IMG/VR virus record: IMGVR_UViG_3300047560_001490 | Coordinates: 1-42,208 of that record | From: a virus | Length of the DNA stretch: 42,208 nt | Direction: 5' to 3' (one strand) | In this document: piece by piece, positions 12,245 to 39,262 of the stretch | How the letters are laid out: every line of letters starts with the position of its first letter | How positions within the stretch are numbered: position 1 is the stretch's first letter | Notes under the pieces: model-generated | The model's database searches: none | Seen by the model: the letters and a program-made list of their open reading frames with translations, nothing else | Told to the model about the DNA's origin: nothing | Made by a program: the position numbers and the translations under genes

Positions 12245-15200
12245 TTAGTCACGTGCTCCTGGGTGTTCTAACAAGAATTTAACTTGCGGACTATTATTGT
12301 ATTGTAACCCCATTGGTGACGGTTCCCAATTATATCCACCAGGTATTAACATATTAGTTCCAGAATCTTGTACTATAACATTTGAGAAATGGCATATTGA
12401 AGTTGTTGATCCAATCACCTCAACAAACTTAATATTTTTATAGCCAACAGGGGGGATACTATTAGAATCAAAAATAATATAAACACCTGCGTCGATGTTT
12501 AGAATTAAACTAACATCACCTTCTATACTTGTTAAGAAGCAATTTGTCTTAACTCCTGGTAAAGGAGCTATTTTAATTGTTATTATTGTTATAGTTTCGT
12601 AATTGTTAATTAAACGTATAGAATTATTAGACATAAAGTAATAATCAATTCCAAGTGTTAACGGTTCTGAATTTGGGTATGTATCATAAACTGTTAACTG
12701 GGTTGTAGATTGTAATGCATCAACTAATCCAATTTGTACATCCATCCCTTCTACAGCATAATAATACATTTTACCTTGTGCTTGAAATTTGTTATTAACA
12801 TATACTGTTATTCCGTTTGGCGAGTATCCGGACATTGTAGCATATCTATCTGTAGTACCGTTTCCGTCAAAATATTCAATATTAAACGTTGTTTCAATAC
12901 CAGTACTGGTTCCGCCAGCACCTCGTACAATGTTAGTTAAGAATGCTCTATTCGGATGATCTCTTGTCGGTGCAGGTTGTACTTCTAAAAAGTCTATTTT
13001 TTCATTATCAATCCAAACAGACCCGGGAACTGTTAATGTTGGTTGGGTCAATTTAGTATAATCTTCTACTTCGATACTGCTAGAGTTTATCAGGACCTCG
13101 CTTAATAGTCTTGTTCTTGCTTTAAAATCTATAGCATAACTCTGTCTATATAACGACGAATCAATAAACTGTCTGATCGCAATACCGGGACGTTCTGGTG
13201 CTCCTCTCATATATCTAATAGTAATATTATCAGCTGGATCATGTGGTTGATTGAAGAGTATTACATATCTATAAGGACCAGAATCAAATGGTTGTGCATC
13301 ATACCCAAATATATCAAACCCTTCAATTGTTCGTCTTGCAATCGCATAATCCCAAAGCATACGCTGTAGTTGATTATTTTTAAAGACTGTTATAGTACTT
13401 TCTGAAGTTGGGTTGTCTTCGAGGATATATTCTCCATTAGGATTTCCATCAAATTCTTGTAGAACAAATCTATAACTTAAATCTTGAGTAAAACTAAGAA
13501 CATTAATTCTAGCACCTATATCAACATTATTCATAAAGATTTCTTTACCAATGATAGAATAAAACTGGCCCTGAGTAGGATCCATATTTACTATTGTAAG
13601 TGTTGCGCCCTCATTTAGTGTAAAATATAACGTAACGGTTCCATCGAATACATCGTAGCCAGGTGGTCCAATATGAGCACCGTCGATATAAACTTTAAGG
13701 TATGTTTCCGGGTCAGTAGGAACATCTGGGAAGTCGAACTGACGGGTATATCCGTCGCCGATATAAGTTTTCATTGGCGGCGGTGATAGTGGAAGACCAT
13801 CTGCTGTTACAACCACAGTTGAATAGTCAGGTACTGTATTACCTACAGGTCTTTCCATAATATAAGAAAACCCTGTATATGTAAATTCTTCATTTAAGAT
13901 TTTACTAAATTGCGGTGTATTGAATACAGTTACAACTACATACGATCCTAACGGAGGAGTTGCAATACTAACGCTAGTAGATGAATAACCTAATACAGTT
14001 GCAAATACACCATTTACAGTTACCATAAAATTGAAGAAACTTGTCCCACTTTTTCTTAAAGTAAATGTACCGGTCTTCCCAGTTGCAACAAAGGTTTCTT
14101 GATTTATTATACTTGTATAATAAGCGTTAAACGTTGCACCAGTACCGCCGGAAGTAGAACTTGCATATTGTACAAATGGTACCGTTGGTTTAACTGTATA
14201 TAACCCAGGACGGTCAATTTTAGCTGTATTAACACCCCAAACAGGAGACATGTTAAGTCCAGACCCATTGCTGTTAGATGATTTCCAAGTTGCAACATCC
14301 GGTATTGTTTTATATGATCCTGCATTGTATATCTCAACTGAAACAATCGAACCTTTGATTGTAACATTAGTAGTTTTTACTAGTAATGGGGTTTGAACTT
14401 CCCCCGGTTGAGCCAGATCCCAAACAAGTTGTAAAATTTCCCCTGTTTTATATCCAGTTCCGCCATTAGCTATGTGTATATTTCCAGCAGTTACAGTTTC
14501 TACTTGAACCCTTGCTCTATATTTTCCGCCAGCATCGTTGAACTGTGTAGGTTCGCCGCCTTCTAATGTTATGAAATCTCCGGGTTTATAATTTTCTCCT
14601 CTTGAAACTGGATAAACAGCAGAAATAGTTGATCCCGATCCGCCGTCGCCATAAGCAATAATTGTAAGTCTTTTACCTGGGTCGGGTGGGTAAACAAATA
14701 CTAATTCACCAGTTTCAAAGTTAACTACAAAATCTTTGGTTGGACCATATCTTAATAATACTCCATCTAAATACGCTTCGACTCCGCTATCATTTTGCGG
14801 ACGAACACCCATACTATAATGATCTTTAATACCTTCAGTTATATAAGATGTTTGCCATACAATTGGCATACCGCCTACATAATTAGAATAAGTATCAATC
14901 CTTACAGCATCTCTAATTCTATTAGTAAGTAACTCTTCTGCATGATCTGCCTCTACAGTTGGATTGATAAAGTCACTTCCGTCTGTAATGATATCATATT
15001 CGCCTGCAGGTGCAGGTTCGAATGTAGTACCTGCATACAAAACCCAAATATTTGGTTTATCGCTACTGGTTGGAGGTGTTGTAAACTTTAGAGTAGAACC
15101 GCCCCATATCATTCCAACTTTGGCATTTTTTCCAGATCCAACATAATAGGAGTCTATATATTCTATACTATATGCCCCGTCTTGAATTACTTCAAAACTA

Positions 15201-18200
15201 CCGGCATTTAACATGATAACATTTTTAATGCCGCCATTTGAATCAACACCTGTTACTACAAATTCTGTTGGTACAACAATTCCGCCCGGAGCATTTCCTA
15301 CAACTTTTAATTTTTCGCCCGGGCTATATCCTTTACCTCGTTCGATTATCTTTATCGATGTAGCATAAGTTGGTATAGTATAATCTTCTCCATAAACAGC
15401 TAATGATTTGTCTTTCCAAATCTTAGTATCAACTAAGTTTTGTGGAACTCTTGATAATCTAAATAAAGTTCTATGCCCGTTACCATAAAATTGATCATAT
15501 ATCGGAGGCAAGCCGCCTTCTAACATTACTTCTTGTGCATCATTTACTGCTGCATCATCGGGAGAGAATCCTGCAGGCATGTCCCAACCTGCCTCAAATG
15601 GTCCTCCTGAATAAATTATTCCCTTGTAGTCAGTTCCGCTAATTAAGTCTGGGCTGAATGCAGGCGGCATATATTGTGTTGGTGCATAATCTCTCATAAT
15701 TCTATCAGCAGCACCAAATGTTTGATGATAGATAGCACCACCGTATCCAGTACCAATACCGACAGTTCTATTATACTTTCCGAATATTATATCTCCGGAA
15801 ATTGCTGTAATTGTAACATCATTTGATGCAAACGACTGTACCATTGTAGATCTTGCAATAACATTACCAACAGTTACAGTTTCTCCTGCAATAAAGATAT
15901 TTGTAATATTTTCTGCCGTTGTAAATATAACCACGTCACCGCGGCTTTCGACATTAACAACAGATACAAAACTATTATATTGATGGAATATGTTACCGCT
16001 TATACCGTTAGCTATACCAATGTTACTAGTGTAATCTACAGTAACAAGGTTACCAGATGTCTCAAGCACTATTGCATTTGACGTTGTGAATGATGTAAAC
16101 GGAGTTGTATTCGAAACTAGTGTAACATTACCAATAGTTACTTTTTCACCTACTCTAAAGGTATTCTGTTCGTTATTTAAATCTACTGAGAATACAACGG
16201 TATTACCCGAACTCTTTGCATTAGTAATTGATAATGATTTACTGTACTGATGATAAATTTCACCCTTTGTTCCAAAATTAGTATCAAGGTTACGATTATA
16301 CTTAGTAACTATAACATTGTCACTTGCACTTGCAACAACAGCATCAGATGTATTAAAAATTGTGACCTGGTTTGTTAAAGATTGTACGTTTGTTACATAA
16401 ATCTTTTCGCCTACTCTAAATGTACTTACTAATTTACTAGGTTTTATAGTAAATGAAACTGTTGACCCGTTTGCAGATGCGTTAACAACGGTTGCAACTT
16501 GAGGCATACTTGCAACTCTATCAAATACCAATTGCGTTTTTAATCTGCGAATAAGATTAGGATTGGTTTTATAGTTATTAAACCATGGGCTGTAAGTTGA
16601 ACTGCTGATCATTATGTTTTGATCAGTTATATTAAGTTCACTTAATACTCTGTAAGAATTGTCTTCAGTTTCTAGATAAACAGGTTTATCAAAGTCAGTT
16701 GATCCTTTAACACTTACATTGTCAACAGCAGTTCTACTACTTACGAATTCTCTTATTTTAGTTCTATAAGGTTTTGCTTCGTTTAAATAATCTAAAAGCA
16801 GATCAACTGTATTTGGTTTATATAGTTCCGAAGTTGACAATGGTTCCATTGACCCGTTAATAGATATGAAACTAGTCTTGAATACCCAATCAACATAATT
16901 GTGTTCATTGAACACAAAATTAACCATTGCAAAGAAAAGTTCGTTTAATTCAGTTGATCCCGAGCCGTTATATATACCCTTAACAACCCCGTCGAATATT
17001 AAACCTATTTCCATAGTTGGGTTGTAATCAAACGGAACTTTAGTATCAAACCCTATTAAATCAAATCCTGATTGATTTTGAGTTGTGTTCCATAAATTTT
17101 CTGTAATTTGGATAGTACCGTCTTGTAATCCAACTAATATTGATCCAGTGGTTTCTAGACCAAGAAATAATGCCCATCTGCCGTCAAAGTCACGAACTTT
17201 AACTACTACACCAGCTGTAATTATTGCGTCTTTTTCTTTAACCGTATCAACTGTATATGTCGGTATGGTATTTGAATCATATCCGTTACTATACCAATCA
17301 ACATATTTCCAATAGTTATTAACATTGTATGCTTGTTTTCTATAAAGAACAAAGTCATTACTTGCTGCATCCCATTGCCAAATAGTCCACATATTATTAT
17401 TAACGGCTGTTGGCATTACAAAAACTCGTTCGCCGTCAATCGCACTTTGTTTTATAATTGACATTTCACTCATGTCATTTATTTTGTATTCATAATTACC
17501 ATAAGCACTTGGTATTGGTTCGCTTTGTGTAAAGTACAAACTCCAAGTAGATTTAGAACTATCTAATACAAGAGGATCTGATGCGTCAGCTAGTTGAGTA
17601 TTAACTCTGTTAGCCCAAATACTAAGAGCTTCTAATCTATCTGCAAACCAAGACTGTCTTGGACGAATTAAATTTCCATATTTTAGTAATTCGTTTAGTT
17701 GAGGATCTGGTACTTGGTTACCCATTGCATCAAATCCTGTTAAGCTATCTCTTAGTTTGTTCCAATATTCTTGATCTATGTAACTATTAGGATCGTCTTT
17801 TCTAATAAGTGTCCATTCTTTATAATCATTTGCATCATTTGGTTTAGTTGTATAATTAACCTGCATAACGATATCTGTATCAGTTAAGAACTCTCCAATA
17901 TTTGCTACAATTAATGTGCGTTCGCTAACTGCGGCAAACCAAGGAATAGCATTACTTCCTGGATTTTTAATAATTCTTGCAATTTCATTAGTAGAAAGAT
18001 TTCTATTTTCTGCAAGCGGCGGCATATCGCTGCGACCTACCCAGAAATAATACCATGTACGTGCTATACCATTTGAATCATATTCTACTTTTTGTGTCCA
18101 GGCTGGATTTGATGAGTTTCTAACAAAGCCAGATGCAATATACGGAATACCATACTTGGATAGATTTACACCTGTTATTGTATAATTTGTCCAGTCTGCC

Positions 18201-21200
18201 GGTGGGATAGAACTTTTAACCCATTCATATATTTCTATATCTGTACCAGGTGCAAGTTTAGCCCAATTTTTAACTCTATAATCTATAGGTCCTGTTTCAT
18301 AATCAACAAATCTTGTTGTACCGAGGTCCCACCATACTTCACCAACATGCGGTTCGCTCCAGCACTCAGCCTCATTCAAACTGTAAACACTTGTATCCCC
18401 GCTGTTATATTGTGCGGGATCATAAACAGTTTTATAGGTGATTTCTTTATCGGCAATTCCGGGTATCATACCCTTGCCTGGATCATAATATTCTAAAACC
18501 GTAGCATCGGCAAATGTTAATTTGTTATATAATCTACTTGATAAAATTAAATTTGCATCAACCTTAGGCTCGGCATTTCTATAAATTTCCCAAGTACCTA
18601 TGTTCCATCTATAAACAGTCCATTCACCTTCTGCTTCGCCGTTTGTTACATAAACAAGGTCGCCTTGGTGCCAACCTCCTAATAGATCATAAGAAAGTAA
18701 CTCATTCTTATCAAAGAATTTTTTACTTTTAAGAACTCTTACAACACCTTCAAAATCTTCAATAAAGGTACTAATCGGAATACTAATAGTTACATCTGTA
18801 ACAGCTTCAACTATAAATGTTGAATTAAGGCTATTATTATTTTTAAAACCTGTTATTACAATCAAGTCGTCAACCATTATTCCGTGGTTATCGTTGAAAA
18901 TAATTTCTGTAATATTTTCGCTTCCATGAGGAAGTGTGCGACTTACAGTGCTTGCAGGACTAACAACTTTATACACATCCCAAGATGCATTAACTGTTGT
19001 GAATTGCCAAATAGTATCACCTGTTGTTAAAGTCTTACCATTTACCGCAAGGTTTGCATTCAAGTTATAAAGTTCAGTTTGATTGATAACTGTATATGTT
19101 GTTTCACCTAAGTGAACAAATCCACTAGTTGGCAAATCGCCATATAAAGAATTATCTACATTTGCTCTTAGTGGGAATAGTTTACCTTCGTAATTTTCCG
19201 GAGGAACTACGATTCCAGGATCTCTAACAGCAATTTCAATTATGCCATCTCTCGGTTGAGTACTATCATAGTTACTAAACACATCAATACGTTGCGGATT
19301 ATTAACATATTCTACTTGTGGTATAATAAAATCTATATTTGTATTAAGTGCAACAGCACCATATCTAGCTTTTCTAAATGCATATTCTTCGTAGTAGTTT
19401 ACAGTTTGACCAGTTGGTAAAATACTAGTGTTACGGAGTATACCATCAAGAGATTTACGAGAACCTTTTTGTCTTATGAAGCCTTGGAAGAATTCAAATT
19501 GAGTTGTATCATCTAATAGTAGATTTTCTAAATATTCTCTCTTTTGATAGCTAATAGTATGCTTGGCTAATTGTGATAAATCAGTTCTTGTAACCGCATG
19601 ATTTATAGAGGAATTTTCTGTTAATTTACCAGTATTATTATCTATCTTCACTATATTTTTAGGTTGATCTATGTTATAGAGATTTTTGAAATCGGCACTA
19701 GTCTTTTCAAAATTCTCAATCATCTTCCATTGATTTGTTATAGGATCTTGATATAAGAAATACCCAGGTGCATCAAGTCTACCTGACCAATTGTTAGTTC
19801 TATAGCCGTAAACTTTAAGACGCGGTTGATATACATTTAAAAGTGGATCATATATTAAATCATTAAACTGTGTTACGTTACTAACCAACATAACATGTTC
19901 AACGGTAGTAACATATACTCTTAATCCAAAGATAGTTTGCCCATTAGTAGAATTAATAGTAAGTTCGTCATTAAATCTTAAAATTTCTAAATTCTGCGCT
20001 TCTATTGGTTGACCTGATTTATCTAGAACTGGGTATGTCCCACCACTAGTTCCATTAACACATTGTACAGTGCCAAATTCCTTTTTAAACTTAATTAAAT
20101 CTGCACCCGGACTTAATGCAATAAAGTTTCCGTTTGTCCAATTACCTTGACTCCAGTAAACGAAATCTCTAGCACTTTGTCGCCAGTTAACAACTTTGCC
20201 ACTTTCGTCGTTAACGATTTCAAATTTCCACCCTTCGCTTTCTAACCAGCGACCATAGCTTACAATAAAATCATAAACATCTTGTCTATTATCAAAAATA
20301 GTTCCATATGGAACAGTATTCAATCCTGCGCCGTTTTTGTAATCTACAACAGTAGTATTACCTATTACGTTACTCGACTTGGGCCCAGTTACAATACTTG
20401 GGATAACAGTAAATGACGGGTTGATTCCGTCATATCCATATACAGCATAACCATTGCTTTGTTTAACAATGATAACACCACTATAAAAATAGGTACCTAA
20501 ACTTGTTGAACGATATAGATATGTTTGTACATTTTCAGATGGCACTAATTGACTAGTATATCCTAACTGACCAAAGCTGTCGGCCATTACTCTTAAACTA
20601 TTATCAGTGCCTACAAATCCGCCAAATTTATGAGCTAGACTGCTATATGAGCCTCTTATCACATAACCGATATTTTTTGTAACACTTAGATTCTGATTGA
20701 TCAAGTATTCGCTTATCCAGTGTTGAATTCCCCAACTACCAAAGAAACTTAGGGTTGACTCGTTTGGAATTGAATTTGTTATTTTCAAACTTGTTGGTAC
20801 TTCTCTATGAATATAAAATTCAGAATTACCTCTTCTATTATTTGTATTTTTATAAAGCCATTGCTGAGAATCACCCTCGCCTACTTGTTCAGTACGTAGC
20901 GGATCCCAAGTTTGTTCGATAAATCTTGCAGGCTTCATTAGATAACTTGTTAATGCTGTAACAAATCCGTGTTCTAAACTATTGATCCAAACATCTTCAA
21001 CTGGTCCACCGTCTCCAAATTTCCATTCTGCTTGTGCATTGTTTAATGTAGGGAGAATGGCAATTACTCCTGCTAGATTAGGAGGTAAGATCAAACCCTG
21101 ATCGTCAACAGGTATACAATCCATTAACCCAGGTCTAGCCCAGGCTGAATGCACCCCGGCTCTAATTCCATTGCGTATTAATCCTGCTGTTAGATCCTCC

Positions 21201-24200
21201 CAAAGAGTTGTATTACCTCTTGTATAGGGTGCAGGACCATACTCGCTTTCCCACCAAACGGGTTTTTGACTAAATCCAAGCATCTCCCATGGGTGAGTAT
21301 GCGGACGATCTGTATCATAGAACCATCTGTAAATAGCTTTCCAATTTCCTGGTATTGGTTCGTTATCTTTATCTGTACATGAGTTGTAGTTCCAAGAAAA
21401 CTCGTTGTTCTCTTGAAAAGTTGCATTAGCAGAATAATCAAGTTGTGAAGTAATGATCCACTTATCAAAACTTGGTCTTAGAATATTTAAGTATTCTTCT
21501 CTACTATAATTCTCTCCTACACTGTCAGCAAAGTTTAATTGGTTTCTCCATTTACCTGGTTTATAAATTCGTTGATCAAATGCAGGAGCGGAATCAATGT
21601 CTTTATATTCTGCCGGGATTGCATTGTATAAGTTAATTTCTAATTGTAACCATGCTGCGGCAACAGGATGTGATAAATGATTTGGATTAGATGTCTTATC
21701 TTTATTACTTGAAATTGTGCCTAACTGTTCACCATGCAGGTCTTCTAATATTATATTCGCACCATCGTGTGTCTGCAAAGTTAATTTAGGAGGGTAATAA
21801 TCGCTATCTAAATAAACCTCTGGTGCAAAAACTGGAGTTATACCTAGTTTTGCAGCAGTTGGAGGAATGAATGTAGGATTTTGTGTTGATGTAAAATCCT
21901 CAGTTTGTTCATACCCACTGTATGCCCATGCACTTGTTTTACTCTTACCTAAATTGATTTGTTGTAGAGCTGTATCAATCCATCCTTGCGGTGTTACGTT
22001 TTTATCAAAGCCTTGTGCATTATATAAATTAAACAACGCTCTGGTAAATCTACTATAGAATCTTGTATATTCTCTTTGTGCCCATTGTATTGCAAGGCTT
22101 ACGTCTGTTAAACTTGTATTACCTAGTGCACCGGTATTGATATTCGAACTATTCAACATCATTAATTTAAGCATAGGTGATCTGTGCTGAAGAATGTGTA
22201 CACCAAGACCTAATACTTTTGCACTATCACGCCATCCTGTTGCGCCGGCACCGTTAGTAGTTTCTTTATATTGATTAGAAATTAGACTACCAAAATGTTT
22301 AATGGTTTGATCAAATGTTAACGTATTAATTTCTTCATTATTTGGATTAGCAACAAGGTTAACTGGTTGTAGATAATAACCGTTTGATGCAACAGGTGTG
22401 TCTTTACTCCAACTATAAATCTCAATTCTTGCAGCAGTTGATTCGTCTACTGCGGTTGTTAACGTTACAGTTCTGCCATAGACGGTATAATCAACTCCAT
22501 TAACCAGAAGTTTCGAACTATGATTATGAATTTGATAAACCATTATGTTGGGTAAAAATCCTAGAACGTCTTCCGCTGGAGACTGATCTATTAGAAACGT
22601 CGCCGTTGATTCAGTTATATCAAAAGAATTTAAAATATATTGACGGGAACCGCCTCTACATTTGTGCCAACCATTACTTATATTACCATTACTATACCAT
22701 AGATACCCTGTTATATCTACTTCCTGATTATTTTCTATATAAGTGTAACTACTTGTAACAAGAGAGTTATCAAATATAAAATCACCAAACTGATCTCGTT
22801 TAGCTTTGATTTGCAAGTAAGTATCTACTACATAATTACTGTCAGTTTTATAGGTAAAAATTGTATTACCTGAGAAGTTGCTACCAGGATAAACAGCAGG
22901 ATCTATTAAGTTGTTTCCGTATCTATCATATCCAGCAAACAGTGCAGGAACATACTTTTGACGTGTTTGAGCAGCTACCCAAGTAGTACCATTAAACCAC
23001 CAAGTCTTTTTACCGTTGTTTGTACCAAACATTGCATATGTACAATCACCGTATGTAGGTGCACCGGTTGAATTCTGTCCTTTGGTTACTAATGTTAGTG
23101 TTACAACACCGTACTCCTCAATTCCGCCTACCTGATAAACTCTATTATTAACTGAGGAATCTTTATCTGCTGTAAAAAGAATAGTCATTCCATCTATAAG
23201 ATTTACACCGTCAATAATTATATTACTACCATACAACACAACATCGCGGCCGCCTATATTAACAGTCCTTCCGTTAACTGTTGTATTACCTACTGAAACT
23301 TGTCCGATTTGCATACCAGCAATTGTCCCAAATACATCAGTGGTTGTTGTATCAACTATATCAATATCAGGCAGTCCATATGTACCGTGATTAAACAGGT
23401 GCATGTTAGAATCAAATTCTATAATTGGACGTTTAGCTTTGACATCTTCTTTGTCGAAAAGATTAAGACCTGATGTTAATAACACATCCTTATGAAACCA
23501 ACGATTATTAACACTCCATCTATTGTAATTCTGTGCAATACGCCCGAGAGTCATATAATCAGGGATATTGTTGATGTCGTCTCCGTCCCAGCCTCTAACA
23601 TCCCATCGTGGAACATCCCATCCAGGTGCAGGTGACATATAATCAGGTTCGATTTTAATACCTGTTCCGACACCTTCGACAATGAAAATAATACCTTCTA
23701 AGCTATGATCAGCATCATTAGAAACTTGTATTCTCATTCCGCTCGATAATTTTAATTCACCTGTAATAGTTTGATTGTCTGTAACTCTGTAATAGGACCC
23801 AACATATGTGTACTCAGTTTTACCTATAGCATCATTGCGTAAATCAGTATAATTTAATAGCTGAATGTTACCGGGTCCTTGCGGTAACCAATAATACTCA
23901 TAAAAGTTAATAAACTTATCAGGGTCAATCGGCGGTAACCAACTATAGTATTCTGTTTCTAGTAATCTGCTATGACTCTTTATATTTGATCCTTGGAATG
24001 CAAGAAGATTTATAGTATCGTCATAGAACATGATATTCGTAACTGCTGAACTAGTAGGGTCTGTGCTTACAGCCGTTACTGGTAGCTGATAATTTGTTCT
24101 ATTCTGAGTCTTTTCTGTTATATAAAAATCTTTATTTTTATCGTAGTAAGCAGGCTTACTACCTACGTATCCACTTATGAATTCTACATTCTCTGGTTGC

Positions 24201-24370
24201 AACATATGATCTATTGTTGCATTGAAGAACTTTTCTAATGTATCAGTTTGATAAACAGCTGGTAACAAGTGTATAGCAGAACGTTTGCTGTTAACTGTGT
24301 CAGTTTGAGCAAATATGTTAGATGCCATAGGTTTAATAGGTTGAGGTCCATTACTTGTTAAATTAGCCAT
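12245..24370 (-). CDS. Giant virion structural protein of the baseplate region (4041 aa)
   Basis: One uninterrupted frame of 4041 codons directly after gp6, overlapping it by 8 bases. In T4 the genes after gp6 are 7, 8, 9 and 10, so this protein probably does part of the work of the baseplate wedge/periphery; that is inference from position. The N-terminal 150 residues (SAIHLLPAVYQTDTLEKFFNA around residue 31) resemble the large structural protein next to gp6 in cyanophages, by memory. Most of the chain is Asn/Thr/Tyr/Gly-rich beta structure with aromatic patches. Residues about 2620-2885 are three tandem repeats (each ending in YHQY, FHQY or YHQT). Around residues 3010-3310 there are GYSPGE, NYKPGD and GYKTGE motifs. 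No enzyme motif or membrane segment was recognised. Confidence 0.85.
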   Translation of the reverse strand: MANLTSNGPQPIKPMASNIFAQTDTVNSKRSAIHLLPAVYQTDTLEKFFNATIDHMLQPENVEFISGYVGSKPAYYDKNKDFYITEKTQNRTNYQLPVTAVSTDPTSSAVTNIMFYDDTINLLAFQGSNIKSHSRLLETEYYSWLPPIDPDKFINFYEYYWLPQGPGNIQLLNYTDLRNDAIGKTEYTYVGSYYRVTDNQTITGELKLSSGMRIQVSNDADHSLEGIIFIVEGVGTGIKIEPDYMSPAPGWDVPRWDVRGWDGDDINNIPDYMTLGRIAQNYNRWSVNNRWFHKDVLLTSGLNLFDKEDVKAKRPIIEFDSNMHLFNHGTYGLPDIDIVDTTTTDVFGTIAGMQIGQVSVGNTTVNGRTVNIGGRDVVLYGSNIIIDGVNLIDGMTILFTADKDSSVNNRVYQVGGIEEYGVVTLTLVTKGQNSTGAPTYGDCTYAMFGTNNGKKTWWFNGTTWVAAQTRQKYVPALFAGYDRYGNNLIDPAVYPGSNFSGNTIFTYKTDSNYVVDTYLQIKAKRDQFGDFIFDNSLVTSSYTYIENNQEVDITGYLWYSNGNISNGWHKCRGGSRQYILNSFDITESTATFLIDQSPAEDVLGFLPNIMVYQIHNHSSKLLVNGVDYTVYGRTVTLTTAVDESTAARIEIYSWSKDTPVASNGYYLQPVNLVANPNNEEINTLTFDQTIKHFGSLISNQYKETTNGAGATGWRDSAKVLGLGVHILQHRSPMLKLMMLNSSNINTGALGNTSLTDVSLAIQWAQREYTRFYSRFTRALFNLYNAQGFDKNVTPQGWIDTALQQINLGKSKTSAWAYSGYEQTEDFTSTQNPTFIPPTAAKLGITPVFAPEVYLDSDYYPPKLTLQTHDGANIILEDLHGEQLGTISSNKDKTSNPNHLSHPVAAAWLQLEINLYNAIPAEYKDIDSAPAFDQRIYKPGKWRNQLNFADSVGENYSREEYLNILRPSFDKWIITSQLDYSANATFQENNEFSWNYNSCTDKDNEPIPGNWKAIYRWFYDTDRPHTHPWEMLGFSQKPVWWESEYGPAPYTRGNTTLWEDLTAGLIRNGIRAGVHSAWARPGLMDCIPVDDQGLILPPNLAGVIAILPTLNNAQAEWKFGDGGPVEDVWINSLEHGFVTALTSYLMKPARFIEQTWDPLRTEQVGEGDSQQWLYKNTNNRRGNSEFYIHREVPTSLKITNSIPNESTLSFFGSWGIQHWISEYLINQNLSVTKNIGYVIRGSYSSLAHKFGGFVGTDNSLRVMADSFGQLGYTSQLVPSENVQTYLYRSTSLGTYFYSGVIIVKQSNGYAVYGYDGINPSFTVIPSIVTGPKSSNVIGNTTVVDYKNGAGLNTVPYGTIFDNRQDVYDFIVSYGRWLESEGWKFEIVNDESGKVVNWRQSARDFVYWSQGNWTNGNFIALSPGADLIKFKKEFGTVQCVNGTSGGTYPVLDKSGQPIEAQNLEILRFNDELTINSTNGQTIFGLRVYVTTVEHVMLVSNVTQFNDLIYDPLLNVYQPRLKVYGYRTNNWSGRLDAPGYFLYQDPITNQWKMIENFEKTSADFKNLYNIDQPKNIVKIDNNTGKLTENSSINHAVTRTDLSQLAKHTISYQKREYLENLLLDDTTQFEFFQGFIRQKGSRKSLDGILRNTSILPTGQTVNYYEEYAFRKARYGAVALNTNIDFIIPQVEYVNNPQRIDVFSNYDSTQPRDGIIEIAVRDPGIVVPPENYEGKLFPLRANVDNSLYGDLPTSGFVHLGETTYTVINQTELYNLNANLAVNGKTLTTGDTIWQFTTVNASWDVYKVVSPASTVSRTLPHGSENITEIIFNDNHGIMVDDLIVITGFKNNNSLNSTFIVEAVTDVTISIPISTFIEDFEGVVRVLKSKKFFDKNELLSYDLLGGWHQGDLVYVTNGEAEGEWTVYRWNIGTWEIYRNAEPKVDANLILSSRLYNKLTFADATVLEYYDPGKGMIPGIADKEITYKTVYDPAQYNSGDTSVYSLNEAECWSEPHVGEVWWDLGTTRFVDYETGPIDYRVKNWAKLAPGTDIEIYEWVKSSIPPADWTNYTITGVNLSKYGIPYIASGFVRNSSNPAWTQKVEYDSNGIARTWYYFWVGRSDMPPLAENRNLSTNEIARIIKNPGSNAIPWFAAVSERTLIVANIGEFLTDTDIVMQVNYTTKPNDANDYKEWTLIRKDDPNSYIDQEYWNKLRDSLTGFDAMGNQVPDPQLNELLKYGNLIRPRQSWFADRLEALSIWANRVNTQLADASDPLVLDSSKSTWSLYFTQSEPIPSAYGNYEYKINDMSEMSIIKQSAIDGERVFVMPTAVNNNMWTIWQWDAASNDFVLYRKQAYNVNNYWKYVDWYSNGYDSNTIPTYTVDTVKEKDAIITAGVVVKVRDFDGRWALFLGLETTGSILVGLQDGTIQITENLWNTTQNQSGFDLIGFDTKVPFDYNPTMEIGLIFDGVVKGIYNGSGSTELNELFFAMVNFVFNEHNYVDWVFKTSFISINGSMEPLSTSELYKPNTVDLLLDYLNEAKPYRTKIREFVSSRTAVDNVSVKGSTDFDKPVYLETEDNSYRVLSELNITDQNIMISSSTYSPWFNNYKTNPNLIRRLKTQLVFDRVASMPQVATVVNASANGSTVSFTIKPSKLVSTFRVGEKIYVTNVQSLTNQVTIFNTSDAVVASASDNVIVTKYNRNLDTNFGTKGEIYHQYSKSLSITNAKSSGNTVVFSVDLNNEQNTFRVGEKVTIGNVTLVSNTTPFTSFTTSNAIVLETSGNLVTVDYTSNIGIANGISGNIFHQYNSFVSVVNVESRGDVVIFTTAENITNIFIAGETVTVGNVIARSTMVQSFASNDVTITAISGDIIFGKYNRTVGIGTGYGGAIYHQTFGAADRIMRDYAPTQYMPPAFSPDLISGTDYKGIIYSGGPFEAGWDMPAGFSPDDAAVNDAQEVMLEGGLPPIYDQFYGNGHRTLFRLSRVPQNLVDTKIWKDKSLAVYGEDYTIPTYATSIKIIERGKGYSPGEKLKVVGNAPGGIVVPTEFVVTGVDSNGGIKNVIMLNAGSFEVIQDGAYSIEYIDSYYVGSGKNAKVGMIWGGSTLKFTTPPTSSDKPNIWVLYAGTTFEPAPAGEYDIITDGSDFINPTVEADHAEELLTNRIRDAVRIDTYSNYVGGMPIVWQTSYITEGIKDHYSMGVRPQNDSGVEAYLDGVLLRYGPTKDFVVNFETGELVFVYPPDPGKRLTIIAYGDGGSGSTISAVYPVSRGENYKPGDFITLEGGEPTQFNDAGGKYRARVQVETVTAGNIHIANGGTGYKTGEILQLVWDLAQPGEVQTPLLVKTTNVTIKGSIVSVEIYNAGSYKTIPDVATWKSSNSNGSGLNMSPVWGVNTAKIDRPGLYTVKPTVPFVQYASSTSGGTGATFNAYYTSIINQETFVATGKTGTFTLRKSGTSFFNFMVTVNGVFATVLGYSSTSVSIATPPLGSYVVVTVFNTPQFSKILNEEFTYTGFSYIMERPVGNTVPDYSTVVVTADGLPLSPPPMKTYIGDGYTRQFDFPDVPTDPETYLKVYIDGAHIGPPGYDVFDGTVTLYFTLNEGATLTIVNMDPTQGQFYSIIGKEIFMNNVDIGARINVLSFTQDLSYRFVLQEFDGNPNGEYILEDNPTSESTITVFKNNQLQRMLWDYAIARRTIEGFDIFGYDAQPFDSGPYRYVILFNQPHDPADNITIRYMRGAPERPGIAIRQFIDSSLYRQSYAIDFKARTRLLSEVLINSSSIEVEDYTKLTQPTLTVPGSVWIDNEKIDFLEVQPAPTRDHPNRAFLTNIVRGAGGTSTGIETTFNIEYFDGNGTTDRYATMSGYSPNGITVYVNNKFQAQGKMYYYAVEGMDVQIGLVDALQSTTQLTVYDTYPNSEPLTLGIDYYFMSNNSIRLINNYETITIITIKIAPLPGVKTNCFLTSIEGDVSLILNIDAGVYIIFDSNSIPPVGYKNIKFVEVIGSTTSICHFSNVIVQDSGTNMLIPGGYNWEPSPMGLQYNNSPQVKFLLEHPGARD
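15716..16500 (-). repeat. Three tandem protein-coding repeats inside the giant structural gene
   Basis: Within codons about 2620-2885 of the 4041-residue protein, a unit of roughly 85-90 residues occurs three times. Each copy has a segment like SGNTVVFSV, then FRVGEKV or FIAGETV, then a V(T/G)NV segment, and finishes with a Gly-rich turn and YHQY, FHQY or YHQT. The copies are diverged at the protein level, so this is an old duplication, not a recent DNA repeat. Limits are approximate. Confidence 0.7.
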
Positions 24371-33871: not shown

Positions 33872-33913
33872 TTCAGTCATTTGCTTCTGTTTTGTTTTTA
33901 ATTAAGGAATATG

Positions 33914-34885
33914 ATGAGTAATGCACCAACGACTAAAATAAAATATCTTACAAACAAGGATTTATTAGAAGAGATACATCGCAGTAAAAAGACTTATTGT
34001 GAATTTATTGCAGAAGAATTTGGTAATTATGATTTTATAGTTACCGACCTGGCAATTGCAACTCCTGAACGTATTCAACAGGCTAGAGAGAAAAGATACA
34101 GCGATACTTTTAGCAAGATGAAAAAGGAAGCAGTATCTAGAGGAGTTAAGAATCCTCAAATACAATTAGATATAGAAACAATTACCCCCGAAAGTATTGT
34201 TATTAGACTAATGACATTTGATCATATTCCAATTAATGAAGAAAAACTACACAAAGCAAAAACAGAAGCAGAACGCCATATTAAATGTAACTTTCCGCCC
34301 TTTCAACATTACATATATAAAGACAACGAATTTATATGTGTAGGTAAGAGTCACTGGGTTGGCGGATTAGAAAACGGTCACTTTAGTAATACACATGGTA
34401 CAATTACAAATAGACTAGCACTTATGTTTATGAAGTTGGTAGAAAGATATAGTCACAGAGGCAATTGGCGAGGTTATACATATAACGACGAGATGCGTAG
34501 CCAAGCATTACTACAGTTAAGTCAAATGGGCTTACAATTTGATGAAAGCAAGAGTGATACACCAAATCCGTTCGCATACTTTACAGCCGCAGTTAACAAC
34601 TCCTTTACAAGAATCCTAAATTTAGAAAAACGTTCCCAAAATATTAGAGATGATTTGCTTATTATGCACGGTGCTATGCCAAGTTATACTAGGCAGACTG
34701 AGCAGGATATAGCCAAGACTGGCGGTGCCGCTGCACCTGCAAGAGGTAGATTTGGTAGAGCTATTAAAAAGGTCGTTCCTGTTGTCGAAGCCGTAGCTGC
34801 TGAGCCAGCTGTTGTTGAAGTAGAAACTACTAAAACAAAAGTTACTAAAACAAAAACTGCTACTAAATCAAAAGCCAAAAAGTAG
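33914..34885 (+). CDS. 55: Late transcription sigma factor gp55, with insertion and basic tail
   Basis: Homologue of T4 gp55, the sigma factor that lets host RNA polymerase recognise TATAAATA-type late promoters. Matching segments are the N-terminal TNKDLLEEIHRSKK (T4: NNKELLQAI) and, at about residues 190-245, GYTYNDEMRSQALLQLSQMG, NPFAYFTAAVNNSFTRIL and a following KR-rich piece. Between them lies an extra segment of roughly 110 residues (from about 45 to 160) with no counterpart in the 185-residue T4 protein. The C-terminus ends in a Lys/Thr-rich tail (KTKVTKTKTATKSKAKK), and the hydrophobic clamp-binding end of T4 gp55 (SLDFLYE) is not visible. An ATG at 33911 is only two bases from the Shine-Dalgarno AAGGA, so I start at 33914. 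Confidence 0.85.
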   Translation: MSNAPTTKIKYLTNKDLLEEIHRSKKTYCEFIAEEFGNYDFIVTDLAIATPERIQQAREKRYSDTFSKMKKEAVSRGVKNPQIQLDIETITPESIVIRLMTFDHIPINEEKLHKAKTEAERHIKCNFPPFQHYIYKDNEFICVGKSHWVGGLENGHFSNTHGTITNRLALMFMKLVERYSHRGNWRGYTYNDEMRSQALLQLSQMGLQFDESKSDTPNPFAYFTAAVNNSFTRILNLEKRSQNIRDDLLIMHGAMPSYTRQTEQDIAKTGGAAAPARGRFGRAIKKVVPVVEAVAAEPAVVEVETTKTKVTKTKTATKSKAKK

Positions 34886-34947: not shown

Positions 34948-35979
34948 ATGGCTCAAAAGAAACCAGACTTTAGTAAATGTGTTGCATTCACTGACATTCA
35001 CCTTGGTCTTAAAAATAATAGCCGTGAGCATAATGCTCTGTGCGAATCATTTATTGATTGGATGGCAGAAGAAGCACAAAAGTTCGGTGCTAAAACCTGT
35101 ATATTCTTAGGTGATTGGCACCATATCCGTTCTGCTATTAATATTTCTACATTAAACTACAGTGTTAGTTGTTTACGTAAGCTCAACAATTATTTTGATG
35201 ACACTATATTCATTATTGGTAACCACGACTTGTTCTATCGTGACAAGTATGAAATTCATAGTATTCCTTACATTAATGAATTTCCAAACATTCATCCTAT
35301 TGATAAACTAACAACCATAGGCGATGTTTGTTTTGCCCCTTGGTTAGTTGAGGATGAATGGAAGAAGGTGCAAAAGATCAAAGCACCATATATGTTTGGA
35401 CATTTTGAATTACCAAAGTTTAAAATGAACGCAATGGTTGAAATGCCAGATCACGGACTTCTAAACCGTGAACACTTCGTTCATCAGAAACAAGTATTTT
35501 CTGGACACTTCCACAAGCGTCAGAGTTTTGAAGATCGTATTTGGTATATTGGTAACTGTTTCCCGCACAACTATTCCGATGCTTGGGATGATGAGCGCGG
35601 CATTATGTTATGGGAACCTGGAAAAGAACCAGCGTTTAAGACATTTCCAGATGCTCCAAAATATAGAACGCTGACTTTAAGTCAGGTATTAACAGATCCA
35701 CTGACGTTTATCGATAGCAAAACGTATGCCAAAATCAACATTGACATTGATATAAATTATGAGGAGATTAACTTCCTCAAAGAAACTTTTGAAAACGATA
35801 TCGGTGCCAAAGAAGTGGCAATGCAGGTGGCAAAAATATCTGATATTGACGTTGACTCTGGTGCTGCTATAAACTTTGAGAGTGTTGATACAATTGTGAT
35901 TAGTCATTTGAAAAGTATTGAAAGTAACACTATCGATACTCAAAAATTAATTTCAATTTATCAGTCACTGACTATATAG
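34948..35979 (+). CDS. 47: gp47, Mre11-like recombination exonuclease subunit
   Basis: Catalytic subunit of the gp46/gp47 complex that resects DNA ends for recombination-dependent replication and host DNA breakdown. The 343-residue protein (T4 gp47: 339) has the metallophosphoesterase motifs in order: Asp16 and His18 (TDIHLG), Asp56 (LGDWHH), Asn92-His93 (IGNHD), His152 (GHFELP), and His187/His189 (GHFHKR). All metal ligands are present, so it should be active. It begins after AAAGGATATAACC, 62 bases downstream of gp55. In T4 its partner gene 46 follows almost at once; here pmoC and a cluster of tiny ORFs lie between them. Confidence 0.95.
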   Translation: MAQKKPDFSKCVAFTDIHLGLKNNSREHNALCESFIDWMAEEAQKFGAKTCIFLGDWHHIRSAINISTLNYSVSCLRKLNNYFDDTIFIIGNHDLFYRDKYEIHSIPYINEFPNIHPIDKLTTIGDVCFAPWLVEDEWKKVQKIKAPYMFGHFELPKFKMNAMVEMPDHGLLNREHFVHQKQVFSGHFHKRQSFEDRIWYIGNCFPHNYSDAWDDERGIMLWEPGKEPAFKTFPDAPKYRTLTLSQVLTDPLTFIDSKTYAKINIDIDINYEEINFLKETFENDIGAKEVAMQVAKISDIDVDSGAAINFESVDTIVISHLKSIESNTIDTQKLISIYQSLTI

Positions 35980-36030: not shown

Positions 36031-36038
36031 TATAAATA
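36031..36038 (+). promoter_or_regulatory. Putative late promoter TATAAATA for pmoC
   Basis: Exact T4 late consensus in the 170-base gap between gp47 and pmoC, about 112 bases upstream of the pmoC ATG. The octamer is followed by TTT, as is the copy at 37075. The leader contains a small inverted repeat (TTAAC/GTTAA, about 36048-36063). Because the phage encodes gp55, pmoC is probably a late gene. Confidence 0.65.
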
Positions 36039-36149
36039 TTTCTGCTGTTAACAACGGCGTTAATATGGAGGCGTTTGTAACTTAAAAATAGTCTTTAAAT
36101 TGTTGAGTTGTGTTAAATTAAATCAATCTAAAAATTTAGGAGATTAGAG

Positions 36150-36923
36150 ATGAGTTCAACAAGTAAGGCGGTTTCCGGCGCAGTTTCCGGTACAGATGCA
36201 AGTGTTGTCGATCTACGTGGTATGTGGATCGGTCTTGGACTATTAAATGTTTTCTATCTAATTGTACGTATCTATGAACAGGTCTTTGGTTGGCGTGCCG
36301 GCCTAGATTCGTTCGCACCCGAGTTCCAGACATATTGGATGTCAATCCTATGGACGGAAATCCCACTAGAACTAGTATCAGGTATGGCCCTCGCTGGTTA
36401 TCTTTGGAAGACCCGCGATCGGGACCTAGCAAATCTTGCTCCTCGTGAGGAAGTACGTCGTATCGTTGTTCTCGTTCAGTGGCTTGTAGTTTATGCTGCT
36501 GCAATTTATTGGGGCGCATCATTCTTCACTGAACAGGACGGTACATGGCACATGACAGTTATTCGTGATACAGACTTTACTCCAAGTCACATCATTGAGT
36601 TCTACATGAGCTATCCAATCTACAGCGTTATTGCTGTTGGTGCTTTCTTCTATGCTCGTACACGTATCCCTTACTTTGCTCAGGGTTACTCACTAGCATT
36701 TTTGATCGTTGCTATTGGACCATTTATGATCATTCCAAACGTTGGTCTAAATGAATGGGGTCACACATTCTGGTTCATGGAAGAGCTCTTTGTTGCTCCG
36801 CTACATTGGGGCTTTGTGTTCTTTGGTTGGATGGCACTAGGTGTATTTGGTGTTGTTCTACAGATTCTAGGACGTATCCACGCCCTAGTCGGTAAGGAAG
36901 GCGTTGCTCTTCTTACTGAATAA
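36150..36923 (+). CDS. pmoC: Particulate methane monooxygenase subunit C (PmoC), alphaproteobacterial type
   Basis: PmoC is a membrane subunit of the copper enzyme that oxidises methane to methanol in the host's intracytoplasmic membranes. The 257-residue protein has the family length and several membrane helices (about 25-43, 104-124, 150-168, 180-197, 220-240). Metal-site residues known from Methylococcus structures are conserved: Asp130, His134 and His147 (DGTWH...PSH), and Asn201, His205 and His219 (NEWGH...LHW). LRGMWIGL, GLDSFAPEFQTYWM and NEWGHTFWFMEELF read like Methylocystis/Methylosinus PmoC, not AmoC. AGGAG lies 7 bases before the ATG. No pmoA or pmoB is present, so the product must join host PmoA and PmoB. 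Single-line hand counts give about 48-50% GC, versus about 32% in a gp46 line. Confidence 0.97.
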   Translation: MSSTSKAVSGAVSGTDASVVDLRGMWIGLGLLNVFYLIVRIYEQVFGWRAGLDSFAPEFQTYWMSILWTEIPLELVSGMALAGYLWKTRDRDLANLAPREEVRRIVVLVQWLVVYAAAIYWGASFFTEQDGTWHMTVIRDTDFTPSHIIEFYMSYPIYSVIAVGAFFYARTRIPYFAQGYSLAFLIVAIGPFMIIPNVGLNEWGHTFWFMEELFVAPLHWGFVFFGWMALGVFGVVLQILGRIHALVGKEGVALLTE

Positions 36924-36956: not shown

Positions 36957-36984
36957 AAACCGCTCACCTTAAGTGGGCGGTTTT
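36957..36984 (+). terminator. Rho-independent terminator after pmoC
   Basis: Stem AAACCGCTCAC (36957-36967) with GTGGGCGGTTT (36973-36983), one G-T wobble, a 5-base loop and a T tract (TTTTC). It lies 33 bases after the pmoC stop and so closes pmoC as its own transcript. Confidence 0.9.
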
Positions 36985-37074: not shown

Positions 37075-37082
37075 TATAAATA
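37075..37082 (+). promoter_or_regulatory. Putative late promoter TATAAATA for the tiny-ORF cluster
   Basis: Exact T4 late consensus, followed by TTTTT, 23 bases before the ATG at 37106. It shares the 11-mer TATAAATATTT with the copy upstream of pmoC. A transcript from here would run through four tiny ORFs to the terminator at 37394. Confidence 0.65.
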
Positions 37083-37105
37083 TTTTTACAAAAGGGAGAC
37101 GCAAA

Positions 37106-37213
37106 ATGTTTAACAAGGTCGCAATATTTTCAGTAACAATGTTTATGATTTTTGCTGTATCAGCATATGCACAAAGTTCATTTGCTCAGGCATTTTGCGG
37201 TAACTGTTTCTAA
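37106..37213 (+). CDS. Tiny exported-peptide candidate, 35 aa, ends FAQAFCGNCF
   Basis: A short ORF with a strong Shine-Dalgarno (GGGAG at 37094-37098, 7-base spacing) and a late-type promoter 23 bases upstream. The peptide begins MFNKVAIFSVTMFM, a short basic start followed by a hydrophobic stretch, then AVSAYAQ, the AxA pattern of a signal peptidase I site. Cleavage there leaves a 13-residue peptide ending FAQAFCGNCF; cleavage at AQA would leave only FCGNCF. Export is inference. The two Cys in FCGNC could form a disulfide or bind a metal. It is followed directly by a second peptide of the same design. I know of no matching family. It could be non-functional, but its signals are unusually clean. 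Confidence 0.6.
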   Translation: MFNKVAIFSVTMFMIFAVSAYAQSSFAQAFCGNCF

Positions 37214-37224
37214 GGAGAGATGTA

Positions 37225-37323
37225 ATGAGATATACTCTTACTATAATGTCTTTTCTAGCTCTTTTCTCTATGGCAGGCATTCTGATTACACTGCCTGCTC
37301 ATGCTCATGCTTTTTACTGTTAA
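37225..37323 (+). CDS. Tiny exported-peptide candidate, 32 aa, ends AHAHAFYC
   Basis: Second ORF of the cluster, starting 11 bases after the previous stop with Shine-Dalgarno TAAGGAG (GGAG at 37214-37217, 7-base spacing) overlapping that stop codon. The peptide starts MRYTLTIMSFLALF, has a long hydrophobic core, and ends LPAHAHAFYC. Two signal peptidase-like AxA sites (AHA, AHA) precede a remnant HAFYC or FYC. It shares the A-x-A-F-[C/Y] end with the neighbouring peptide, so the two may be a related pair. His and Cys near the end could bind copper; that is speculation. No known family is recognised. Confidence 0.6.
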   Translation: MRYTLTIMSFLALFSMAGILITLPAHAHAFYC

Positions 37324-37334
37324 GGAGTACGTTA

Positions 37335-37361
37335 ATGGACGAACAACTATGGGGATTTTAA
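37335..37361 (+). CDS. Octapeptide ORF MDEQLWGF
   Basis: An eight-codon ORF with Shine-Dalgarno TAAGGAG (GGAG at 37324-37327, 7-base spacing), which again overlaps the stop of the ORF before it. Its product MDEQLWGF shares an acidic start and a W-x-G-F or W-G-F end with the next ORF. It might be a signalling peptide, a leader peptide or a chance ORF; the repeated Shine-Dalgarno spacing is the main support. Too short for any family comparison. Confidence 0.4.
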   Translation: MDEQLWGF

Positions 37362-37362
37362 A

Positions 37363-37386
37363 ATGAACGAATGGGATGGATTTTAA
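37363..37386 (+). CDS. Heptapeptide ORF MNEWDGF
   Basis: Seven codons starting one base after the previous stop (37359-37361), with GGGGA at 37351-37355 at the same 7-base spacing. The product MNEWDGF resembles MDEQLWGF in its acidic start and aromatic-Gly-Phe end. Its stop is 8 bases before the cluster's terminator hairpin, so it is the last element of the transcript. Confidence 0.35.
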   Translation: MNEWDGF

Positions 37387-37393
37387 AAACAAC

Positions 37394-37418
37394 AAAGCCG
37401 CTATATGCGGCTTTTATT
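37394..37418 (+). terminator. Rho-independent terminator closing the tiny-ORF cluster
   Basis: Stem AAAGCCGC (37394-37401) with GCGGCTTT (37407-37414), 5-base loop TATAT, followed by TATTTT. It lies just after the heptapeptide ORF, making 37075-37418 a self-contained unit with its own promoter and terminator. Confidence 0.9.
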
Positions 37419-37483: not shown

Positions 37484-39262
37484 ATGCTCGCAATAAAATC
37501 CGTTACAATGAAAAACTTTATGAGTGTTGGTGCTGTTACACAATCTGTCGACTTAACTAAAAACGGCGTAACACTTGTATTTGGTGAAAACTTAGATCTA
37601 GGCGGCAATGGTTCTCGTAACGGCGTAGGCAAGAGTACAATCCTACAGGCTATTAGTTATGGACTATTTGGTGTTCCATTAACCAACATTAAAAAAGATA
37701 ATCTTGTAAACAAGATCAATCAAAAGAATATGAGTGTTAGCATTGAATTTGAAAACAATGGACACAAGTATCGCATTGAACGTGGCCGTAAGCCGCAATT
37801 CTTTCGTTACATTGTAGACGATGAGAATGTTAATAGTCAGGATACTGACGAAGCACAGGGCGAAAGCAAAGATACACAACACGAAATTGATCGTATATTA
37901 GGTATGAGTCATACAATGTTTAAGTACATTGTAGGATTGAATACATACACAGAACCATTTCTATCACTAGGTGTTAGTAAGCAACGAGAACTTATTGAAG
38001 AACTACTATGTATCACACAGTTAAGTCAAAAGGCTGAGAAGCTAAAAGAACTTATTAAGACTACTAAAAACGAAATTGAAAAAGAAGAACTGCGACTTCG
38101 TACAGTTAAACTTTCTAATGAACGTATTCAAAATACTATAGAAGATGTTAATCGCAAGGCTGATCAGTGGATTACGGATCATCAACAAGAATTAGAAACA
38201 CTAGATATGGCTATTGCTAATCTAGCTAATCTTGATATTGAAAATGAATTAGAGCAACATAAACAAGTTGAAACTAAAAAAGAACTTGAACAAGTGATTA
38301 ACCAGTTAAAGAGGGATATATCATTAAAGACTCGTCATGCCACTCAACTTGAAACACAGTTAAATGGATTGGTTGCACAGTATAGCACAGTTCTAAACAA
38401 AGAATGTCCAATGTGCGGACAAGGTCTACATGATCACGCCCACGATTCAATCGTAGAAGATCTCGAAGGTAAAATTGCTAACCTAGATGGACAAATTTCT
38501 AGCGAACGCCAAGAGATTGCAAACTTACAAGCAGAAGTTGATACCATTTCTCCTGTATTAGAAGCTATGGGTAAACCAGAAACATTCTATCCAACTCTAC
38601 GTGAGGCACTAGCACATAAGTCTACAATTGATCAACTTATCAAAGACTTAGATAAAGAGAAAACTAGAGAAAATCCTTATGCAGAACAAGCAGTTAGCTT
38701 ACAAGAAACTATGCAACCTATTGATTACGATATACTGAACACAAGCGTAAAAAATAGAGAGCATCAAGAGTTTTTATTGAAGTTACTCACTAGCAAGGAT
38801 AGTTTCATCCGTAAGAAGGTTATCGATCAAAACCTTGCATATCTTAACAGCAGACTAAGCGAGTATATTGATAAACTTGGATTACCGCATCTTGTTAAGT
38901 TTATGAATGATCTAACAACTGAAATTACTATTCTTGGACAGGATCTAGACTTTGATAATCTTAGCCGCGGAGAACGTACAAGATTGATTCTTGGGTTAAG
39001 CTGGGCGTTTAGAGATATCTTTGAGAACACTAATCATGCCGTTAACTTGATATTTGTCGATGAGCTGCTAGATAGTGGACTCGACAGTGCTGGTCTTGAA
39101 GGATCTGTTGATCTTCTTAAGAAGATGGATCGTGAACGCAACAAGAATGTATTTGTTATTAGTCACAGAGAAGAGTTGATTAACCGTGTAACCAATATCC
39201 TAACAGTAATTAAGGAAAACGGATTTACTAACTTCTCATATGATTATGAAACAGTGACGTAA
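37484..39262 (+). CDS. 46: gp46, Rad50-like recombination ATPase subunit
   Basis: ATPase partner of gp47 in the recombination nuclease. The 592-residue protein has the SMC/Rad50 layout: N-terminal strand MKNFMSVG, Walker A GNGSRNGVGKST (Lys50), a long coiled coil interrupted by a zinc hook CPMC near residue 308, the ABC signature LSRGER (about 493-498), and Walker B LIFVDE (Asp526, Glu527), followed by FVISHREE. The frame is open further upstream to 37376, but that would run through the terminator and tiny ORF; the ATG at 37484 (MLAIKSV) aligns with T4 gp46 and has an extended -10 promoter ahead. The zinc hook is kept. It ends convergently with the nuclease gene, overlapping by 19 bases. Confidence 0.95.
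   Translation: MLAIKSVTMKNFMSVGAVTQSVDLTKNGVTLVFGENLDLGGNGSRNGVGKSTILQAISYGLFGVPLTNIKKDNLVNKINQKNMSVSIEFENNGHKYRIERGRKPQFFRYIVDDENVNSQDTDEAQGESKDTQHEIDRILGMSHTMFKYIVGLNTYTEPFLSLGVSKQRELIEELLCITQLSQKAEKLKELIKTTKNEIEKEELRLRTVKLSNERIQNTIEDVNRKADQWITDHQQELETLDMAIANLANLDIENELEQHKQVETKKELEQVINQLKRDISLKTRHATQLETQLNGLVAQYSTVLNKECPMCGQGLHDHAHDSIVEDLEGKIANLDGQISSERQEIANLQAEVDTISPVLEAMGKPETFYPTLREALAHKSTIDQLIKDLDKEKTRENPYAEQAVSLQETMQPIDYDILNTSVKNREHQEFLLKLLTSKDSFIRKKVIDQNLAYLNSRLSEYIDKLGLPHLVKFMNDLTTEITILGQDLDFDNLSRGERTRLILGLSWAFRDIFENTNHAVNLIFVDELLDSGLDSAGLEGSVDLLKKMDRERNKNVFVISHREELINRVTNILTVIKENGFTNFSYDYETVT

Follow-up and report, generated by a model that had tools for sequence, protein, structure and literature searches.

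A host-type pmoC gene carried as a predicted late cassette between genes 47 and 46 of a T4-like phage

The pmoC locus and its phage surroundings

The whole stretch of DNA analysed here, called the window, is a virus record of 42,208 bases and represents a fragment of a genome. The junction between its genes 47 and 46 holds 1.5 kb, in which a TATAAATA motif, a leader, pmoC and a terminator are followed by another TATAAATA motif, a pair of small ORFs and one more terminator. The features of this region are as follows.

33911..34885, + strand: gp55-like late-transcription sigma factor, the predicted reader of late promoters (phrog_12791, 'sigma factor for late transcription', E=7e-82)
34948..35979, + strand: gp47, an SbcD-like subunit of a recombination nuclease, bordering the cassette on the left (phrog_100, E=2e-62)
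36031..36038, + strand: TATAAATA, putative late promoter of pmoC, one of six copies of NATAAATA; GATAAATA stands at the corresponding place in L040
36045..36149, + strand: 5' leader of pmoC, about 105 nt, its start deduced from the promoter; the ribosome-binding site, AGGAG, lies at 36138-36142
36150..36923, + strand: pmoC, 257 aa, intact, with six metal ligands (translation, alignment, NCBIfam)
36957..36983, + strand: predicted intrinsic terminator of pmoC, an 11-bp stem with a T-rich tail
37075..37082, + strand: second TATAAATA, putative late promoter, also one of the six motif copies in the window
37106..37213, + strand: sORF1, 35 aa, signal-peptide-like, ending in QAFCGNCF
37225..37323, + strand: sORF2, 32 aa, signal-peptide-like, ending in HAFYC
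37394..37414, + strand: predicted terminator before gp46, with a counterpart in L040 found by eye
37484..39262, + strand: gp46, an SbcC-like subunit of a recombination nuclease, bordering the cassette on the right (phrog_77, E=3e-106)

The mechanical ORF call placed the start of gp46 at 37376, and the true start near 37484 was taken from alignment to relatives. The immediate neighbours of pmoC (gp55, gp47 and gp46) are T4-type genes with matches in PHROGs, and the gp55 gene lies 1.3 kb upstream of pmoC. Baseplate genes gp25 and gp5 were matched in PHROGs on the opposite strand. The assignment to a T4-like phage, proposed earlier from the letters, is supported by these core genes. Thymidylate synthase and dihydrofolate reductase are also encoded alongside the T4-type genes. 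Among the structural genes (2369-33782) lies a single ORF of 4041 aa (12245-24370), which had no Pfam match. In L040, the syntenic relative of the window, gp55 (L040:4977-6869) is interrupted in frame by about 320 aa. This insert matches intein splicing weakly (E=5e-4, under the Pfam cut-off), so the late sigma factor may contain an intein; the gp55 of L247 has a gap similar to that in L040.

The original prediction of a full-length pmoC held on translation, which gave 257 residues followed by a stop codon. The protein scored 335 bits against NCBIfam TIGR03078 (methane/ammonia monooxygenase subunit C; cut-off 280.6) and was above the cut-off of NF041641 as well. Its best matches were solved PmoC chains, namely 3rfr_C (E=1e-154; 229 of 257 residues, or 89%, identical), and also 4phz and 3chx; structure 3rfr is from Methylocystis sp. 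strain M. The AmoC_BACT model of NCBIfam was also passed and does not discriminate between PmoC and AmoC. An ammonia monooxygenase identity was ruled out by the scores against solved structures, in which AmoC chains were far lower (217-225 bits), and by the tree described below. The metal ligands named beforehand were all found at exactly their predicted positions (D130, H134 and H147; N201, H205 and H219), and the six are invariant in 61 alphaproteobacterial PmoC coding sequences, 35 of them distinct phage genes and 26 bacterial. Ligand numbers in the window equal those of M. capsulatus Bath minus 26, the PmoC ligands of the latter being numbered Asp156, His160 and His173 (PMC7674155).

The predicted Shine-Dalgarno sequence and terminator were likewise located, the stem of the terminator being followed by T-rich sequence. 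As had been claimed, neither pmoA nor pmoB was detected by tblastn in the 42-kb window, and the same search found neither in 80 viral pmoC loci. A search of the INPHARED phage record collection gave no match, so isolates were of no help.

A self-contained cassette at the gp47-gp46 junction

The closest relative without pmoC is L243, whose gp47 and gp46 are each about 80% identical to those of the window and whose gp46 starts directly after the stop codon of gp47. Since the two genes abut in so close a relative, the arrival of pmoC was the precise insertion of a cassette. The empty site is also present in many more distant relatives; among the relatives fetched by gp55 and gp46, genes 47 and 46 are mostly adjacent or overlapping, with a minority carrying other inserts of 0.1-1.2 kb. 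The site is occupied by pmoC in one other phage lineage, seen in the separate contigs L040 and L041 at about 80% identity, where the second late unit is absent. These two contigs gave identical match coordinates and are perhaps one population. The insert has its own promoter and terminator and is missing from the same site in close relatives, as expected of a moron. We conclude that pmoC is now a phage gene, inserted as a self-contained, presumably late-transcribed cassette between genes 47 and 46.

Other phages carry pmoC before an HSP20-like gene (by eye), among tRNA genes (L005) or among small ORFs, and the position before the HSP20-like gene has been described in six phages (PMC7674155). 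These different sites indicate repeated entry or movement of the cassettes. In the T4-like L163, L166, L173, L186, L189, L219 and L225 the gp47-gp46 junction is taken up by different inserts, about 0.8-1.2 kb long, so it looks like a recurrent insertion site.

Positions 37075-37414, behind pmoC, form a second complete late unit consisting of TATAAATA, two signal-peptide-like ORFs, two ORFs of 7-8 codons (MDEQLWGF and MNEWDGF) and a terminator. No homologue of sORF1 or sORF2 was found in the pmoC viral loci. Because the terminator adjoining gp46 recurs, as judged by eye, in L040, the window lineage may have acquired the second unit afterwards, or L040 may have lost it.

Late-promoter motif, leaders and selection

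The established late-promoter motif of T4-like cyanophages is NATAAATA, and that of T4 is TATAAATA (PMC2984593). When ATAAATA cores were counted on both strands, the 42-kb window contained six copies of NATAAATA, against 24.3 expected from dinucleotide shuffles. All six are intergenic, though intergenic sequence makes up only 3,139 of the 42,208 bases (7%), and in every case a gene on the same strand begins 18-112 nt further on; these are four genes of the structural region, pmoC and sORF1. In the intergenic sequence alone, six copies compare with a shuffle mean of 2.2, and 11 of 500 shuffles reached six. The motif evidence thus draws its strength from placement and strand.

We then considered 77 upstream regions of pmoC-phages, grouped in 25 clusters, and sought the motif within 250 nt. 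It was present in 20 of the 25 distinct clusters, mostly 65-119 nt before the start codon, whereas shuffles of these regions had it in 3.0 on average and in 10 at most (200 shuffles). None of 75 regions upstream of bacterial pmoC had the motif, a weak comparison given that bacterial DNA is richer in GC. Metatranscriptomes of other pmoC-phages revealed co-expression of pmoC with structural genes (PMC7674155); a late-promoter motif at pmoC agrees with this observation and offers a cause for it. From the motif and its position, we infer that pmoC of the window is transcribed late.

A leader of about 80-100 nt before pmoC is common to many pmoC-phages of alphaproteobacterial type (L011, L013-L036 and L043-L054; alignment A1). 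Its shared layout is TATAAATA-N5-AAGAGTGGC...GACCACTTGAT...GGAGAAT-ATG. Two hairpins are predicted in it, a long one and one that covers the Shine-Dalgarno sequence, and nearly all loci that carry its 3' arm have the arm a single time, at pmoC. This leader is highly conserved and predicted to be stable; compensatory changes were seen in 0 of 15 pairs, so its structure is not proven, and Rfam gave no match to it in the five loci tested. The leader of the window was also considered as a structured RNA and rejected, as its fold was no better than those of shuffles (z -0.6). In and around the cassette of the window, Rfam returned sub-threshold chance matches only.

Selection on the coding sequence was estimated among 35 distinct phage genes of alphaproteobacterial type, for which dN/dS had a median of 0.07 and a maximum of 0.14 (198 pairs with dS of 0.02-1.2). 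The window compared with pmoC of L040, which shares its site, gave 0.079/0.73 = 0.108. Phage pmoC is therefore kept under strong purifying selection. Its GC3 is 0.37 in the window and 0.38 on average in phage genes of alphaproteobacterial type, against 0.81 in bacterial genes.

In the tree, PmoC of the window fell with the Methylocystaceae (type II) pMMO clade with branch support of 98/89, in agreement with the alphaproteobacterial type proposed at the outset. It grouped with Methylocystaceae PmoC and not with AmoC, gammaproteobacterial PmoC or pMMO2, and it was not part of a moderately supported (87/82) cluster of bacterial sequences. By tree path, the bacterial sequence closest to it was an operon copy, that of a Methylocystis MAG (L082). 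A single clade of all alphaproteobacterial-type phage PmoC was not rejected by the AU test (p 0.51), and neither was a grouping of the window with bacteria (p 0.23). Judged by this kinship of PmoC, its place in the tree together with the nearest operon copy, the host is likely to be a type II, Methylocystis-type methanotroph. Methylocystaceae also have stand-alone pmoC copies which, like the phage gene, are extra to the pmoCAB operon, but the phage gene was not inside their clade.

Proposed role of phage PmoC and its alternatives

By analogy with psbA of cyanophages, we consider it probable that pmoC is a host-derived auxiliary metabolic gene, expressed late as a replacement for host PmoC. Late in infection, gp55 would guide the RNA polymerase of the host to the TATAAATA copy at 36031. 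The phage PmoC would be inserted into the intracytoplasmic membranes, where it would assemble with host PmoA and PmoB already present and replace host PmoC that has been lost or whose synthesis has ceased with the shutdown of host expression. Methane oxidation, the main source of reductant and carbon for the cell, could thereby be kept running until lysis, a role parallel to the supposed effect of phage psbA on photosystem II. Both the assembly with the host subunits and the benefit to the phage are what we infer, and the idea of the original prediction that fresh PmoC keeps energy flowing gains support from the late-promoter placement and the purifying selection. PmoC alone is not known to be catalytic, nor is it known to be exchanged into existing pMMO. 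The activity of pMMO in vitro has been tied to PmoC loaded with copper (PMC6572826), so that this subunit makes sense as the one to supply. Some lineages can dispense with the gene, since in several published phages pmoC is split or partial (PMC7674155).

Phage PmoC could also modify methane oxidation, a variant N-terminus or metal preference allowing it to displace host PmoC and to alter or damp pMMO to suit the phage, for example with less demand for oxygen or copper. The N-terminal 18 or so residues do differ between phage and bacterial PmoC next to a nearly identical core, and Chen et al. noted divergent termini and speculated on Zn/Cu use (PMC7674155). We regard this modification as unlikely, however, with the six ligands and nearly the whole core conserved and with positions 4, 10, 34, 170 and 241 alone separating most phage from bacterial PmoC in the alignment. 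A structural or membrane-remodelling role, in which extra PmoC would be placed in the intracytoplasmic membranes late, near assembly or lysis, and not for methane oxidation, is compatible with a late class like that of structural genes and with the carriage of subunit C alone, never A or B. Such a role would not need conserved metal-site ligands, yet all are conserved, and we give it little credence.

The possibility that pmoC is a passenger, gained from the host by recombination and without a role in fitness, is already largely refuted by the selection test (dN/dS of about 0.07-0.11 within phages). GC3 has drifted to the phage level while the protein was kept, and the phage promoter motif recurs in most upstream clusters (20/25). 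The absence of pmoC from close relatives and the fragments and partial copies in published phages (PMC7674155) would suit a passenger, which we nevertheless judge very improbable. Bacterial pmoC was reported to confound the assembly of pmoC-phages (Chen et al., PMC7674155), and a chimeric join of a bacterial pmoC to a phage contig was the danger named with the original prediction. It is excluded in practice by the GC3 of 0.37 against 0.81 in bacteria, by the gp47-pmoC-gp46 order shared with L040/L041, which are separate contigs about 80% identical, and by the phage late promoter that precedes pmoC, and its probability is negligible.

The proposed late-expressed replacement of host PmoC can be compared with known systems. 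Phages with pmoC have been known from freshwater lakes since 2020 (Chen et al. 2020, Nat Microbiol, PMC7674155), as the original prediction had stated. Like the window, they are large T4-related myophages with a stand-alone, host-like pmoC and no pmoA or pmoB; they include an alphaproteobacterial (Methylocystis) type, and their late expression was deduced from RNA (PMC7674155). In contrast, the gp47/gp46 site, the late-promoter motif, the moron-like cassette and a selection test did not turn up in a search of its main text. Phage pmoC as such was published in 2020, and what the present analysis adds to it are the cassette, the evidence from several lineages for a late promoter, and the test for selection. 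The psbA of T4-like cyanophages is similarly a host-derived gene for a membrane subunit of an energy-yielding enzyme, thought to sustain the energy metabolism of the host (PMC2984593), but enzyme and host are different, and turnover is established for D1, not for PmoC during infection. Viruses of ammonia-oxidising Thaumarchaeota carry amoC, again subunit C alone of a copper membrane monooxygenase, as cited in PMC7674155; there, in contrast to the window, the host is archaeal, the viruses are unrelated and ammonia takes the place of methane.

With the promoter class, the exact empty site and the measured selection, the published suggestion can now be tested through the timing of pmoC and through relatives that differ at the cassette. 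Much of the biological removal of methane is due to methanotrophs, and phages with part of their key enzyme could change the escape of methane from lakes.

A wider proposal, to which we assign a low probability, is that methanotroph phages in general express pmoC as a late-class gene, controlled by gp55 and preceded by a leader of phage making, that many alphaproteobacterial-type phages have beside pmoC a conserved, probably structured leader not found in host genes, and that the window lineage gained in its second late unit a pair of very small secreted peptides with cysteine-containing ends, whose target may be pMMO, perhaps through the handling of copper. Near its C-terminus sORF1, which stands without homologues in the pmoC viral loci, has a CGNC, at most a hint of a methanobactin-like peptide.
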